A stretch of 44,323 nt of DNA from Candidatus Peregrinibacteria bacterium (lineage in GTDB: Bacteria > Patescibacteriota > Gracilibacteria > UBA1369 > LOWO2-01-FULL-3), in the NCBI GenBank assembly GCA_030688025.1, contig JAUYJL010000026.1, forward strand, positions 1 to 44,323. Direction: 5' to 3'. Below the pieces are notes generated by a model. The model ran no database searches and was not told where the DNA came from. It was given only the letters and a program-made list of their open reading frames with translations. How positions within the stretch are numbered: position 1 is the stretch's first letter; each line of letters begins with the position of its first letter. The position numbers and the translations under genes were made by a program. Shown here in pieces: positions 35,963 to 41,909 of this stretch.

Positions 35963-38053
35963 ATGGCAGATGAGTTAAGAAATTTACGCAATATTGGTAT
36001 TATTGCCCATATTGACGCCGGAAAAACAACAGTTTCAGAACGTATTCTATTCTACACAGGAAAATCATACAAAATCGGAGAGGTTCATGAAGGAGCCGCT
36101 GTAATGGACTGGATGGATCAGGAAAGAGAAAGAGGAATTACAATCACATCTGCCGCAACAACTTGTTTTTGGACAACACCGGACGGAGAAAAATATAAAA
36201 TCAATCTTATCGATACTCCAGGACACGTTGACTTCACAGTTGAAGTAGAACGTTCTCTTCGTGTACTTGATGGAGGTGTCTGCGTTTTTGACGGAGCAAT
36301 GGGAGTAGAACCACAATCCGAAACAGTATGGAGACAAGCGGATAAATACGATGTTCCTCGTATTGCGTTCATTAACAAAATGGACAAAATCGGAGGAGAT
36401 TTTTACATGAGCTTAGATTCAATTCACACAAGACTAAATCCACACGCAGTCGCAATCCAACTTCCAATCGGAATGGAAAAAGACTTCAGCGGCATGGTTG
36501 ATCTTATCGAAAGAAAAGCCTACACATTTTCAGGAGACAAAGGAGAAACAGTTGTAGAAATCCCAGTTCCTGAAGACATGAAAGAAAAAATGGAAGAATT
36601 CAGAGCTATTCTAGTTGAAAAAGTTTCAGAACACGACGATGCTCTTATGGAAAAATTCATAAACGGACAAGAAATTTCAGTCCCGGAATTAAAAGCCGCT
36701 CTAAGACAAGCCACAATTCATACAAAACTTTTCCCTGTTATGTGCGGAACAGCGCTACAAAACAAAGGTGTTCAAATCCTTTTGAACGCAGTTTGCGCAT
36801 ACCTTCCATCCCCACACGATCTACCTCCTATCAAAGGTCATGACGTCAAAACAGGAGAAGAAATTTTGAGACATCCAGATGGTAAAGAACCATTCTCAGC
36901 ATTAGCATTCAAAATTGCAACAGATCCATTCGTCGGATCACTTTGTTACTTCCGTGTTTATTCAGGAACACTTGAATCAGGAAGCTACATTTTAAATGCA
37001 TCAAAAGACAGCAAAGAAAGAGTCGGTCGTATTCTTCAAATGCATTCAAACAATAGAGAAGAAATCAAAACTGTACACGCAGGAGATATCGCCGCATTAG
37101 TTGGACTAAAAAGCACAACTACAGGAAACACACTTTGCGACCCTGGAAGTCCCCTACTACTTGAATCAATCACATTCCCGGAACCGGTTATCAGAATTGC
37201 AGTTGAACCAAAAACCAAAGCCGATCAAGAAAAGATGGGACTTGCTCTTCAAAAACTTGTTGAAGAAGATCCAACATTAAGAGTTAATTCAGACCAAGAA
37301 ACAGGACAAACAATCATCGCCGGAATGGGTGAACTTCATCTTGATATCATCATCGATCGTATGAGAAGAGAGTTCAAAGTTGAAGCAAACATCGGTGCAC
37401 CGCAAGTTGCATACAGAGAAACAATTACAAAAGAAGTAAGATGCGAAGAGAAATACGCAAAACAATCAGGAGGACGTGGACAATACGGACACGTAATTAT
37501 GAAACTTTATCCACAAGAACCTGGAAAAGGATACGAATTTGAAAACTCGATCGTCGGAGGAAAAATTCCAAAAGAATTTATTCCAGCTGTCGATAAAGGT
37601 GTACAGGAAGCCCTTACTAGAGGAATTCTTGCAGGATATCCTGTTGTAGATATCAAAGCAGAACTTATCGATGGAAGTTACCATGATGTTGACTCATCCG
37701 AAATGGCGTTCAAAATCGCCGCATCAATCGCCTTCCAAAGTGGAGCAAAAGCCGCAAGCCCTGTCATTCTTGAACCTATCATGAAAGTGGAAGTTGTCGT
37801 TCCTGAAAATTATTTTGGAGATGTAATGGGAAATATCAGTTCACGCCGTGGACAAATTCTTGAAACAGGCGACAGAACAATGGTCAAATTCATCAAAGCT
37901 ACTATTCCATTGTCTGAAATGTTCGGTTACGCAACTGACCTTCGCTCAATGACTCAAGGTCGCGGAAACTACACAATGGAATTCGGTTTCTACGAAAAAG
38001 TTCCAACATCTGTTGCTGAAGCAATCATCACAAAAAGAACAGGAGCAAAGTAA
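35963..38053 (+). CDS. fusA: Elongation factor G
   Basis: 696 residues. G1 [14 protein letters not shown], switch [13 protein letters not shown]3 [17 protein letters not shown]4 NKMDKIGGD, followed by domains II-V ([21 protein letters not shown], and [16 protein letters not shown] near the end). GTP-driven translocase. It closes the rpsL cluster; tuf, which usually follows, is 2.7 kb away beyond an inserted cassette-like stretch. Confidence 0.98.
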
Positions 38054-38072
38054 ATCTTTAACCCTCACCTCT

Positions 38073-38336
38073 ATGACTCTACGTCTAAAACCACTTGCAA
38101 TGGCCCTCGGCGGACTTTTTGCCATCATGTTTGCCATCTGTTTTTTCTGGGGCTTCGCAATTCCTGCAGACCTTCTCGAATTGCACACAAACCTTATGAG
38201 AATGTCATTTTTCGGATACACAGGCCTAAACCTCCTAAGCTTCGTTTATGGCTTCCTTCAGAGCTATATCTGGGGAATCATCACAGGATTAATCTTCTGG
38301 AGGTGCTACTACCACTGCGACAAATGGTTTAAGTAA
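38073..38336 (+). CDS. Two-helix membrane protein, DUF5676-like
   Basis: 87 residues from the ATG at 38073 (MTLRLKPLAM); a longer frame from 38013 would overlap fusA. Two transmembrane helices (about 8-28 and 58-78) around SFFGYTGLNLLSFVYGFLQSYIWGIITGLIFW; the C-terminus CYYHCDKWFK has two cysteines. The glycine pattern of the second helix resembles DUF5676 proteins; function unknown. It lies 19 bp after fusA, so may be in its transcript, and the cassette-like region starts right after it. Confidence 0.6.
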   Translation: MTLRLKPLAMALGGLFAIMFAICFFWGFAIPADLLELHTNLMRMSFFGYTGLNLLSFVYGFLQSYIWGIITGLIFWRCYYHCDKWFK

Positions 38337-38353
38337 AGTTCGTATAAGAACGA

Positions 38354-38360
38354 GTTAGCT
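38354..38360 (+). other. Possible recombination core site before the first cassette ORF
   Basis: GAACGAGTTAGCTGACAG resembles the R' ends of the two attC-like sites (GAACGTTAGCGGAAAT at the second). GTTAGCT (38354-38360) would be the core. No full attC fold is seen upstream, so it could be a truncated attC or an attI-like end. Confidence 0.3.
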
Positions 38361-38374
38361 GACAGAAAATAAAC

Positions 38375-38403
38375 TTGACAAAACTGCAATTTAGGTGTTA
38401 AGC
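38375..38403 (+). promoter_or_regulatory. Putative promoter of the cassette ORFs
   Basis: TTGACA (38375-38380) with TTAAGC at 38398-38403 (17-bp spacer). The -35 is perfect, the -10 poor. It lies after the first core-like site and before the lipoprotein-like ORF. Confidence 0.4.
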
Positions 38404-38434
38404 TGTAAGCACTAATTTTTTAGCCCTGCAAACT

Positions 38435-38695
38435 ATGAATATAAACGTGCCAGAAACTAAGACAGAATGTCCCACCTTAGCAAATAAAACTGCCTTACTT
38501 GCCGCAGTTCTTGCAGCCATCGGTACAATAAGTGGTTGTGCACATCAAAGTGCAATTTCTACTAGTCAGACAGTCCATGTCAACGGCTCCGGAAAACCTC
38601 ATGTTACTTGTATTAGTTCAGGTGGCAATGGCAATGCTAGAGTTAGATCAACAACAACAATAAATGGAAAAACTTATAGGTGTCCTGAAAACTGA
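38435..38695 (+). CDS. Putative small lipoprotein, cassette ORF 1
   Basis: 86 residues. After a polar start the segment TALLAAVLAAIGTISGC looks like a signal peptide ending in a lipobox-like ISGC (Cys at about residue 35). The mature part is short, Ser/Thr/Gly-rich and polar, with two more cysteines. I recognise no family. It lies between a GTTAGCT core-like site and attC-like site 1, so it has the position of an integron cassette gene. Stop codon TGA. Confidence 0.55.
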   Translation: MNINVPETKTECPTLANKTALLAAVLAAIGTISGCAHQSAISTSQTVHVNGSGKPHVTCISSGGNGNARVRSTTTINGKTYRCPEN

Positions 38696-38716
38696 ACGTC
38701 AAATTTATTTTTCATC

Positions 38717-38844
38717 AGCTAACAAAGTTTAAGCGGTTCCGTTCAATCGCTTCGCTCCTTCACTGCACCCATATTCACTGGCGGTTGATCGCTTCGCGAT
38801 ATATTATACCGCCAGTGAACATCGCTTAAACTTGGACGTTATGT
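38717..38844 (+). repeat. attC-like site 1
   Basis: Outer arms: AGCTAAC (38717-38723) and GTTATGT (38838-38844) around an 11-bp inner pair, AAGTTTAAGCG (38725-38735) with CGCTTAAACTT (38823-38833). The 5' spacer between the boxes is 1 nt and the 3' spacer 4 nt, giving extrahelical bases. Inside, TTCACTGGCGGT (38774-38785) pairs perfectly with ACCGCCAGTGAA (38808-38819), topped by ATCGC/GCGAT with a TTC loop. Same layout as site 2. RYYYAAC and GTTRRRY are each met with one mismatch. Confidence 0.75.
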
Positions 38845-38873
38845 GAAATAGTAAAAAAATTTAAACTAACAAT

Positions 38874-39320
38874 ATGCCACCAGAAAAACCAACAGTAACT
38901 CCAAATACACCGCCACCCAACAACAATCCAAAACCTAAAGAGGATAAGGAGTTTCATACTTTTGAACAACTTATATTTTCTAGAACACAACGTGTCCAAC
39001 AAAAACCTGGAGAAACTTCTGGGCAATTACATGAGAGACTAAGGCCACAAATAATGGATAGCTTTCAAGTTATCAAAAAACCAACAAAGGTTATTACACA
39101 CTCATGGTATACATTTGATACAAGTCATATACTAGGAAAAGATACATTTGTACTATGCACCTCAACTTGTAAGCATGAAACTCCTTATCAGCTTATAGTT
39201 GGAAAAAGAGACACGAATTTTCAAAAAGAGCTTGGTGACGGTAGATATGAATACACAGTATATACTTTAGGGAAAGAGTTAACTGAAAAACAAAAGAATC
39301 AGATATATGATGAGATGTAA
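38874..39320 (+). CDS. Hypothetical protein, cassette ORF 2
   Basis: 148 residues, not recognised. Residues 1-25 are Pro/Thr/Asn-rich and disordered (MPPEKPTVTPNTPPPNNNPK); the remainder is a soluble mixed alpha/beta region with WYTFDTSHILGKDTFVLCTSTCKHETPYQLIVG and YEYTVYTLGKELTEKQ. No membrane segment. It starts 29 bp after the core of attC-like site 1 and ends 16 bp before site 2, exactly the gene-attC order of integron cassettes; unit length between the two cores is 612 bp. Confidence 0.65.
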   Translation: MPPEKPTVTPNTPPPNNNPKPKEDKEFHTFEQLIFSRTQRVQQKPGETSGQLHERLRPQIMDSFQVIKKPTKVITHSWYTFDTSHILGKDTFVLCTSTCKHETPYQLIVGKRDTNFQKELGDGRYEYTVYTLGKELTEKQKNQIYDEM

Positions 39321-39336
39321 TTTTTTTTACTAGATC

Positions 39337-39456
39337 ACACAACACGCACTTTGCGGCTTCGCTCCTTTCAGTCGCTACACCCATATTTTGGCCTGTTTCA
39401 GCACTCCGTGCTAAATTGTAACAGGCCAAAACATCGCAAAGTGCGGAACGTTAGCG
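39337..39456 (+). repeat. attC-like site 2
   Basis: Outer ends ACACAAC (39337-39343) and GTTAGCG (39450-39456); 11-bp pair CGCACTTTGCG (39345-39355) with CGCAAAGTGCG (39435-39445); spacers 1 and 4 nt. Inner TTTTGGCCTGTT (39386-39397) pairs perfectly with AACAGGCCAAAA (39420-39431), topped by AGCAC/GTGCT with a TCC loop. The 5' bulge GCTTCGCTCC through ACCCATA is shared with site 1 although the stems differ in sequence, the pattern expected for structure-conserved attC sites. Confidence 0.75.
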
Positions 39457-39473
39457 GAAATAATCAAAAAAAT

Positions 39474-39599
39474 ATGATAAAAACAGCACTAGCATCTCTA
39501 ATCATTGGAGACCCCTTGTCCATTGCATGTCCAGCATTTGGTGGGAATATATTCACAATAACAATTTTCGGAGTTTCATGTGGAGTAGCTATGCACTGA
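39474..39599 (+). CDS. Small hydrophobic peptide, cassette ORF 3
   Basis: 41 residues, MIKTALASLI followed by a glycine- and cysteine-containing hydrophobic stretch ending SCGVAMH. It starts 17 bp after the core of attC-like site 2, after the sequence GGAAATAATCAAAAAAAT, which resembles the stretch after site 1. Too short to assign; it could be a membrane peptide or not expressed. No third attC-like site follows, so it is the last unit. Confidence 0.4.
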   Translation: MIKTALASLIIGDPLSIACPAFGGNIFTITIFGVSCGVAMH

Positions 39600-39646
39600 T
39601 CCCCAAAGGTGCAATTTAAAATAACACAAACCTTAACCTCATCAAT

Positions 39647-40570
39647 ATGCTCCAAGTCCTAACCGTAATCGCGCCACTATTTCTCATAATTTTTGCCACA
39701 GCAATCTTGCAAAAATTCACAAACCTCGGCGACGACTGGTCAAAAGTACTAAATGCTTTTGCTTTAAAAATTGGTCTACCGGTTTTGATTTTTTCTGCAC
39801 TTTCGAAAGCACCATTCTCATTTTCAGAACAATCATCCCTAATAATTTCAAATTCATTATTCGTTGTCGGCAGCCTTTTATTAGCTTATTTGATCGGAAA
39901 AATTCTACGTCTAAAAAACCAAATGTTCGCAACATTATTCATTTGTTTCATTTTTGGAAATGTAGCATACCTTGGAATTCCAGTATTAACTCAAACATCA
40001 GGCGATAAAATACTACCAACCGCCACTTTAATTGTAGCAATATATTTGTTCTGGATGTTCACAATCGGAATCGGATATTTGGACTATTCAATCACAAAAA
40101 GCAAAAGAGACATCCTAACAAATGTTATAAAAAATCTTTTCTTTAATCCTCTTCTAATTGCTGTAATCCTTGGAATAACAATAGGAAGCCTAAAACTCAC
40201 ACTTCCCTCAGTACTGCTAAAATCATTAGATATGATAACAGCTTCAGTCACTCCAACAGTATTGATAGTAATAGGACTTTTCATCGGAAAATCCAAATTC
40301 GGAAAATTAACTGATTGGTTCCCTATCTTACTATTTTCAATCCTAACTTTAGGAATATTGCCGGCAATTTTCTACTTCGGCGCAAAGCTTTTCGGATTCT
40401 CTCCAAGTCACTTTTCAAGCTCAATAATCCAAGCCGCAATGCCACTCGCAATCACCCCTTTTGCCTTAGCTGATAAATACAAATTGAACAAAAACTTCAT
40501 AGCCCGTTCAATCGTCCTGAGCACAATCCTTTCGGTAATCTCCCTACCATTTTGGATCTCAATATTGTAG
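39647..40570 (+). CDS. Auxin efflux carrier (AEC) family permease
   Basis: 307 residues with about ten membrane helices. The N-terminus VIAPLFLIIFATAILQKF, ALKIGLPVLIFSALSKAPF and the second-half repeat TPTVLIVIGLFIGKSKF, ending QAAMPLAITPFALADKYKLN (the conserved AEC segment), fit the Mem_trans family. Bacterial members export malate or other organic acids; the substrate here is unknown. It lies between the cassette stretch and tuf. Confidence 0.88.
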   Translation: MLQVLTVIAPLFLIIFATAILQKFTNLGDDWSKVLNAFALKIGLPVLIFSALSKAPFSFSEQSSLIISNSLFVVGSLLLAYLIGKILRLKNQMFATLFICFIFGNVAYLGIPVLTQTSGDKILPTATLIVAIYLFWMFTIGIGYLDYSITKSKRDILTNVIKNLFFNPLLIAVILGITIGSLKLTLPSVLLKSLDMITASVTPTVLIVIGLFIGKSKFGKLTDWFPILLFSILTLGILPAIFYFGAKLFGFSPSHFSSSIIQAAMPLAITPFALADKYKLNKNFIARSIVLSTILSVISLPFWISIL

Positions 40571-40605
40571 GACTTATGAAAACATATTTGTTCTCCAAAT
40601 TTCTC

Positions 40606-40634
40606 TTGCATTGCCCCAAATTCTCGTATATATT
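40606..40634 (+). promoter_or_regulatory. tuf promoter
   Basis: TTGCAT (40606-40611), 17-bp spacer, TATATT (40629-40634). It predicts a leader of about 75 nt that includes the hairpin GTCG/CGAC (loop CACG). Confidence 0.55.
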
Positions 40635-40715
40635 TCCGAAGCTGTCGCACGCGACTAATTCTTGCGTATTAAGCCGACATCAAATCACTCATCTATTATT
40701 TTAACAATTACCAAT

Positions 40716-41909
40716 ATGGCAGAAGGAGTATTTGTGAGAAATAAGCCACACATGAACGTTGGTACAATAGGCCACGTTGATCATGGTAAAACTACACTCA
40801 CAGCCGCAATCACTATGGTTGCTGCAAAAAACTTCGGAGGCGGAAACAAGGCGGTAGCATACGACCAAATTGACAACGCTCCTGAAGAAAAAGCTAGAGG
40901 TATCACGATTGCTACCTCACACCAGGAGTATGAAACACCAAAGAGACATTACGCTCACGTGGATTGTCCTGGACATGCCGATTATGTCAAAAACATGATC
41001 ACTGGAGCCGCTCAAATGGATGGAGCAATCCTGGTAGTTTCAGCCGCAGACGGCCCTATGCCACAAACTCGTGAACATATCCTTCTTGCCCATCAGGTTA
41101 ACGTTCCATACATTGTTGTTTTCTTAAACAAAATGGACATGGCGGATCCTGAAATCGCAGATCTTTCAGAAATGGAAGTTCGTGAACTTCTAAATAAATA
41201 CGAATACCCTGGAGATACAACACCTATCATCAGAGGATCAGCTCTAAAAGCAGCTGAAAATCCGGATGATCCAGTAGCAGCAAAACCAATTCTTGATCTT
41301 CTTGAAGCTTTAGATACATACCTCCCGGATCCGGTTCGTGAACTAGACAAACCATTATTGATGTCAGTTGAAGATGTATTCTCTATCAAAGGTAGAGGAA
41401 CAGTTGCAACGGGAAGAATTGAAAAAGGAATTGTTAAAGTAAATGAAGAAGTTGAAATCGTTGGTATTAGAGACACAAGAAAAGTTACAGTTACCGGTGT
41501 TGAAATGTTCAAGAAGAGTCTTGATCAAGGACAAGCCGGAGATAACGTAGGTCTACTTCTACGTGGAATTGAAAGAGAAGAAATTGAAAGAGGACAAGTT
41601 ATTGCAAAACCTGGATCAATTACTCCTCACACACAATTCGAAGCTGAGGTTTACGTACTTACAAAAGATGAAGGTGGAAGACATACTCCATTCTTCAAAG
41701 GATACAGACCACAATTCTACATCCGAACAACAGACGTTACCGGAGCTTTCGAGCTTCCGGCAGGTGTTGAAATGGTTATGCCCGGAGATAACGTAAAAGC
41801 GGTTATCACACTTGGAGCACCTATCGCTCTAGACCAAGGAACACGTTTCGCTATCCGCGAAGGTGGACGAACAGTCGGAGCTGGAGTAGTTGCAAAAATC
41901 CTAAAATAA
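40716..41909 (+). CDS. tuf: Elongation factor Tu
   Basis: 397 residues from the ATG at 40716 ([16 protein letters not shown]). The 40662 ATG would add 18 residues and sits in the leader. G1 [13 protein letters not shown], switch [16 protein letters not shown]3 [13 protein letters not shown]4 NKMD, and domains II/III with [23 protein letters not shown]. Delivers aminoacyl-tRNA to the ribosome. It has its own promoter and a strong terminator, so it is a separate transcript from fusA. Confidence 0.98.

Follow-up and report, generated by a model that had tools for sequence, protein, structure and literature searches.

The window, i.e., the whole stretch of 44,323 nucleotides analysed here, is contig C18 of genome G000 (G000:C18), one of the 34 contigs of an uncultured member of the Patescibacteria (CPR) with a genome of about 1.18 Mb, available as a MAG; the evidence base of this work consists of MAG sequences. 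Its fusA-tuf interval holds a DUF5676-like gene, a cassette array, and a Mem_trans gene. The features of the array and its flanks, including the scores of our covariance model R1, are as follows:

35963 to 38053, plus strand: fusA (EF-G), left flank of the array, as ORF and protein.
38013 to 38336, plus strand: DUF5676-like 2TM gene as the listed ORF, left neighbour of the array (Pfam PF18926, E 3e-6).
38337 to 38354, plus strand: attI-type site AGTTCGTATAAGAACGA/G(TT), left boundary of the array (matrix rank 1 of 571; predicted cut between 38354 and 38355).
38355 to 38838, plus strand: cassette 1 (86-aa lipoprotein-like ORF and attC); its 5' core GTTAGCTGA and its own R'' TCAGCTAAC are reverse complements at 9 of 9 positions.
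38365 to 38379, plus strand: 5' outer arm of cassette 1, complementary to 38698-38712 except for one or two positions; positions 10-12 before it are unpaired.
38435 to 38695, plus strand: ORF of cassette 1, small and lipoprotein-like (YgdI/YgdR lipoprotein family, a weak match under the cut-off).
38698 to 38712, plus strand: 3' outer arm of cassette 1, partner of 38365-38379.
38713 to 38848, plus strand: attC site 1 (R1 110.9 bits, E 7e-28, held-out; fold z -3.8/-4.4).
38839 to 39450, plus strand: cassette 2 (148-aa ORFan and attC); its 5' core GTTATGTGA agrees with its own R'' TCACACAAC at 8 of 9 positions.
38849 to 38860, plus strand: 5' outer arm of cassette 2, with 11 of 12 bases complementary to 39321-39332.
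38874 to 39320, plus strand: ORF of cassette 2, an ORFan (no match in Pfam, NCBIfam, or PADLOC).
39321 to 39332, plus strand: 3' outer arm of cassette 2, partner of 38849-38860.
39333 to 39460, plus strand: attC site 2 (R1 82.4 bits, E 5e-20, held-out; fold z -5.1/-5.3).
39451 to 39586, plus strand: truncated start of a third cassette, with GTTAGCGGAAATAATC first after attC site 2.
39587 to 39619, plus strand: conserved right flank, left over from the 3' end of a small native ORF, with GCTATGCACTGATCCCCAAAGGTGCAATTTAA common to G002.

EF-G is 94-98% identical in the same-genus genomes G001 to G003, reaching 98% in G002, where the DUF5676-like neighbour is found at the same place with 91% identity; the true start of this gene is probably the ATG at about 38074 and not the listed one. 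On the right, the flanking GCTATGCACTGATCCCCAAAGGTGCAATTTAA differs by one base in G003. The ORF at 39474-39599 turned out to be a fusion of the truncated cassette with the end of the small native ORF, which is intact in G002 and G003, and R1 revealed no attC downstream of the start of the third cassette. Among the three small ORFs on one strand that the original prediction had pointed out, two belong to cassettes, while the third, with no attC after it, does not form a complete one. The ORF of cassette 2 was not found in the 98 other relatives searched, and neither Rfam nor ARAGORN gave a match in the window.

The hairpin anatomy that had been predicted, from the R boxes to the terminal loop, could be read directly at both sites. 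The outer boxes comprise AAC at 38721-38723 and GTT from 38838 in site 1, and AAC at 39341-39343 and GTT from 39450 in site 2; both sites display an L stem of 11 bp (AAGTTTAAGCG/CGCTTAAACTT and CGCACTTTGCG/CGCAAAGTGCG, respectively); their spacers measure 1 and 4 nt, the inner stem pairs perfectly over 12 bp, and the cap has 5 bp and a loop of 3 nt. The internal loop is large and one-sided, with CCCAWA opposite CAT or CTT. Folding as DNA gave z-scores of -3.8 to -5.3 against dinucleotide shuffles, none out of 200 of which was equally stable on either strand. Sites were located by a covariance model, a strict regular-expression scan having proved too narrow; the model, R1, was trained on only eight attC sites of another contig of the same genome, C23, with the window held out. 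The check proposed with the original prediction, carried out with this model of our own, clearly retrieved both sites (E-values above), and no further match was found in the 44-kb window. That the stems differ in sequence while pairing is kept could also be confirmed, since in the L and inner stems of the training set 41 cells were changed on both sides, compared with 12.7 in shuffles; 96.5% of the cells were paired, compared with 29-49% when the stems were slid. The best L helix came with spacers of 1 and 4 nt in 92 of 124 sites, and a perfect uninterrupted L helix of 11 bp was present in 78 of them, and likewise in both window sites. While the sites fold as an attC does, into a hairpin comprising R and L boxes, a central spacer, and a terminal structure, the canonical definition includes two or three extrahelical bases and a conserved G in L'' (PMC2727003), and the L stem carries no extrahelical base in either window site. 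An alignment of 11 class-1-type canonical attC sites yielded no consensus structure. A DNA search of the genome with site 1 gave matches on C21 and C23. The site on C21 (L011 3069-3207, minus strand) stands alone; it is attC-like but degenerate and lacks a proper R'' box.

The GTTAGCT core-like site that had been described as opening the run, at 38354, is real, and it belongs to a candidate attI. Beside integrases, the motif TTCGNATAAAAACGA/GTT is found, and a position-weight matrix was built from 11 integrase-adjacent sites of other genomes, leaving out both this genome and G002. The window core at 38354 ranked first among 571 GTTR positions, with a score of 15.5 versus 5.2 for the next one. 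G002 has a near-identical attI-type site at the same locus and another beside its integrase. At the shared locus, the same DUF5676-like gene and the same attI-type site are followed in G002 by a cassette other than that of the window, which, according to our reading of the translated ORF, appears to encode a short-chain-dehydrogenase-like protein; the right side, located on a separate contig, displays a different attC, a DsrE-like gene, and then the right flank of the window. Cassette content differs between G000 and G002 at a fixed site, as it should in an integron, and the variation among relatives that had been suggested as a check does exist. In G001, the fusA-tuf interval contains neither attI nor array. 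The attI in this interval may have originated as a copy or as a chance site.

Integron cassettes start with GTTRRRY, the complement of which (R'') lies in their own attC. We compared the ends of 103 cassettes from the window genome and its relatives, and the four variable core bases matched the own 3' end in 65 of them (63%), versus 6.5% in mismatched cassettes. Resolved by position, complementarity covers positions 1-9, is almost never seen at positions 10-11 (5-6%), and resumes in an outer arm at positions 12-23, with an agreement of 64-83% versus 24-36% in mismatched pairs, position 12 itself being conserved (65% agreement even in the mismatched control). Beyond position 24, pairing sinks to background, so that the arm has a sharp end. 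The resulting end signature of 9 + 2 + 12 positions can be written as CATCNNNYAAC ... GTTRNNNGAAA. In 13 canonical cassettes from plasmids, no second arm was detected, and complementarity was contiguous over 7-12 nt. We therefore claim only the separate arm at positions 12-23 as different; end complementarity beyond the R box as something wholly new was dropped, given that canonical cassettes reach 7-12 nt as well. The outer-arm pattern recurs, more weakly, in 20 cassettes of other CPR phyla, and in Paenibacillaceae the arm comprises 6 bp. Both the attI-type site and these cassette-specific terminal inverted repeats go beyond the original prediction.

The outer arm is able to pair only where a circle joins the two ends of a cassette, and the circle hairpin was computed to be more stable than the array hairpin in 88 of 94 cases, with a median of -12 kcal/mol. 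Homologous cassettes in which both ends have changed still pair end to end, e.g., in a pair whose ORFs are 40.6% identical over 224 aa, the arms TGCTTTTGGGGC and TAGTTTGGCTTT are each perfect with their own partner. The arms might be scars of cassette birth, left for instance by foldback copying when a hairpin joins a gene, and being cassette-specific and of fixed length, they do look as if derived from one copying event. This explanation, which concerns the arms only and is compatible with our main reading of the array, seems rather unlikely to us, since unrelated as well as homologous cassettes have held the pairing of both arm and R box although both ends have changed, the fixed 2-nt mismatch and the sharp limit at 12 bp resemble a protein footprint, and the arm of Paenibacillaceae measures 6 bp.

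On contig C23, the integron-integrase profile matches positions 40327-41127, where a tyrosine recombinase of 274 aa (P0001, 40327-41151) is encoded. Divergent from it, at least 10 cassettes extend over about 18 kb, each closed by the same type of hairpin, and all site-associated ORFs are directed away from the integrase. The array had been described as lacking an integrase, which holds for the window but not for the genome; similarly, the proposed search for an IntI with the patch domain led to an integrase with an array on C23, but not to a patch domain. The catalytic R, K, HxxR, H, and Y are kept in the aligned orthologues. In all full-length members, the interval between KDR and HxLRH amounts to about 61 residues, compared with 65-71 in Xer and 103 in IntI1, IntI2, and a Vibrio IntI. 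The IntI-specific insertion of about 42 residues (I2, the additional domain around patch III) is absent from the CPR recombinases, and the IntI4 structure 2a3v aligns in two pieces only, with the gap at the missing insertion. The TIGR02249 score is 187.8 bits versus a cut-off of 265, and no IntI above this cut-off was detected in the genome. In a maximum-likelihood tree, 46 CPR proteins formed a clade of their own (100/95), four IntIs another (100/100), and Xer a third. Because of the missing insertion, the separate clade, and the score under the cut-off, the C23 enzyme does not fall within IntI as this family is defined, though judged by its sequence and setting its role would be that of an integron integrase. 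A Microvirga plasmid recombinase (39% identity) was considered as a relative; it has a long branch and was set aside.

The cargo of the C23 cassettes includes a type III restriction-modification pair, an EcoRI endonuclease-methylase-ATPase set, a TdeIII-type nuclease, an HNH protein, and a DsrE protein. The whole type III pair and the whole EcoRI set each occupy a single cassette (L010 8978-13824 and 15265-18679, respectively), and in the window genome restriction systems apparently move in cassette form.

Lacking the additional patch domain, the integrase does not define an ordinary IntI integron. The chance is small that we are dealing with an ordinary CALIN of canonical IntI-type integrons, horizontally acquired and mobilised by a canonical IntI. 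Such a CALIN would have the same overall layout, with R and L boxes, the cut at GTT, and ORFs in the cassettes, and class 1 cassettes have end complementarity of 7-12 nt too, but this genome is without an IntI above the TIGR02249 cut-off, the sole integrase beside such sites has 61 residues versus 103 in IntI and belongs to a clade apart, with full support, extrahelical bases are missing from the L stem, and none of the 13 canonical cassettes has an outer arm. Somewhat less probable still is that not the C23 enzyme but a resident XerD-like recombinase encoded on contig C6 moves the cassettes, as Xer does for some phages; CTX phage indeed recruits the XerCD of its host to a hairpin devoid of extrahelical bases (PMC4792948), but the C6 protein is an XerC/D relative of the usual type and has no adjoining array, whereas in many genomes members of the C23 family are encoded next to arrays, and their occurrence goes together with that of the sites. 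If the sites were structured repeats (MITE, REP-like, or terminator hairpins) with no more than a likeness to attC, this would explain conserved-loop hairpins in multiple genome copies, but we give this reading hardly any credence, given that the sites occur at the junctions of cassettes, oriented alike and next to a recombinase, that their stems differ in sequence and covary, that end-to-end complementarity is cassette-specific, that a sister species has different cassettes between equal flanks, and that, instead of near-identical copies at non-cassette positions (the original prediction had named identical hairpins there as a sign of ordinary repeats), most sites were found at cassette junctions with differing stems, besides one degenerate copy on C21.

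Among 99 relatives, orthologues of the integrase (E <= 1e-30) were identified in 52 and sites in 66, with 47 genomes having both, 5 the integrase only, 19 sites only, and 28 neither (Fisher P = 1e-7); that 19 of the 66 site-bearing genomes show no orthologous integrase at E <= 1e-30 is partly due to the incompleteness of MAGs. In a named collection, orthologues were present in Peregrini-, Peri-, Gracili-, Nomura-, Moran-, Magasanik-, Uhr-, Buchanan-, and Wolfe- (complete chromosome), and further in Dojka-, Roizman-, Shapiro-, and WWE3 lineages. Of the named CPR loci, 23 extend for about 1.5 kb or more beyond the integrase on its upstream side, and 19 of these display a divergent adjoining array. 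Patch-less recombinases of a sister clade are encoded at L178, L194, L197-L199 (Paenibacillaceae), and L188 (Nitrospinae); at the sister-clade loci, attC-like sites with CATCNNNYAAC...GTTRNNNGAAA ends share the strand of the integrase. L121, in a MAG labelled Actinomycetota, encodes an integrase with 61% identity to that of the window genome; the MAG is probably mis-binned or mislabelled. In the Gracilibacteria loci L158, L159, L161, L162, and L186, the integrase orthologues are broken or shortened under table 11. As such breaks are expected if TGA is read as glycine, the integron system is probably present in code-25 bacteria.

Taken together, we consider it very probable that the feature is a two-cassette satellite array (a CALIN plus a truncated third cassette) of a CPR-wide class of patch-less chromosomal integrons, located at an attI-type site in the fusA-tuf interval. 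The integron-like CALIN reading of the original prediction is hereby supported, with two attC sites in the window and the integrase on another contig. What argues for it at the sequence level are cassettes in one orientation, covarying attC-type hairpins, complementary cassette ends, an attI-type site bordering the array on the left, other cassettes between equal flanks in a sister species, and a genome-encoded recombinase divergent beside a larger array of the same kind. From these data, the C23 enzyme would be the one that recombines the cassettes (excision and integration), and as it is encoded on another contig, we infer that it acts on the window array in trans.

According to this mechanism, the C23 recombinase would excise cassettes as circles, joining the two GTT cores, and a circle would be inserted at a double-stranded attI via the folded single strand of its attC, cut at G/TT. 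In canonical integrons, the additional domain and the extrahelical bases are reported to secure strand choice and single-strand exchange (PMC4792948, PMC2727003); with no I2 insertion in the enzyme and no extrahelical base in the L stem, this route is probably unused here. Strand choice might come from the asymmetric central spacer of 1/4 nt and the one-sided loop with CCCAWA opposite CAT or CTT. The outer arm would steady the folded substrate in the circle by about 11 kcal/mol over the same attC in the array, and could thereby favour the capture of circles over the excision of resident cassettes. Counting against the mechanism, the additional domain of IntI, absent here, is necessary for integron integrase activity according to Messier and Roy (2001) in the form in which PMC4792948 cites them. 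With its third cassette broken, the window array may be an ageing relic.

For the wider picture, we lean, by a narrow balance, towards regarding the systems of CPR and of the sister clade (Paenibacillaceae and others) as a separate integron class, in which a patch-less integrase, the lack of extrahelical bases, and a circle-only arm would constitute another solution to strand choice and cassette flow, maybe a Xer-like stage before IntI gained I2. Integrons are the best-known natural device for gene capture, and the additional domain of IntI and the extrahelical bases are held to make them work. If a large bacterial radiation runs cassette arrays with neither of them, as it seems to, that claim can be put to a direct test, and the transition from Xer recombinases to integrons, long under discussion, gains a candidate. 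Streamlined CPR genomes would moreover have a modular means of swapping genes, e.g., type III restriction-modification and EcoRI-type systems. We found no papers on integrons in CPR bacteria in the open-access literature, subscription papers and preprints lying outside the search, so that novelty is provisional, and no report of an outer arm or of a patch-less CPR integron in the papers searched. In a survey of defence systems in groundwater, IntegronFinder was run and only complete integrons were kept, and a report on Firmicutes lists one complete integron and a few CALIN. Searches that require the IntI domain would overlook such systems or class them as CALIN, and the 9 + 2 + 12 end signature offers a simple means of finding them.

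In comparison with known systems, canonical integrons (class 1, Vibrio chromosomal) share with the CPR arrays a divergent tyrosine recombinase, an attI-type site, cassettes in the same orientation, a folded attC with R and L boxes, the G/TT core, and a 5' core complementary to the own R''. They differ in that the CPR integrase lacks the insertion of about 42 residues and forms a separate clade, that the CPR L stem has 11 bp without extrahelical bases, with spacers of 1/4 and an R box of 9 bp, and that the CPR sites have an outer arm of 12 bp behind a fixed 2-nt mismatch and a CCCAWA/CAT internal loop. CALIN, in the sense of IntegronFinder, are clusters of at least two attC sites with no integrase nearby. 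Like them, the window has two attC sites with cassettes and the nearest integrase on another contig; unlike them, its array starts at an attI-type site of its own, and an intact-looking integrase is present elsewhere in the genome. Archaeal integrons (PMC9668308) likewise come from uncultured lineages known from MAGs only, but their IntIs were reported with the IntI-specific additional domain (PMC9668308), which the CPR enzymes do not have. With XerC, XerD, and XerA, the CPR enzyme has in common its size, fold family, catalytic residues, and the lack of the I2 insertion, whereas it is located beside cassette arrays, belongs to a separate clade, and is not a dif resolvase; its C-terminus carries SPL/F, as in IntI and unlike Xer. 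Finally, the integration of CTX-type phages by the host Xer also relies on a tyrosine recombinase that has no patch and whose substrate is presumably a folded single strand devoid of extrahelical bases, but while the phage genome hijacks Xer, the CPR bacteria possess cassette arrays together with a dedicated integrase.
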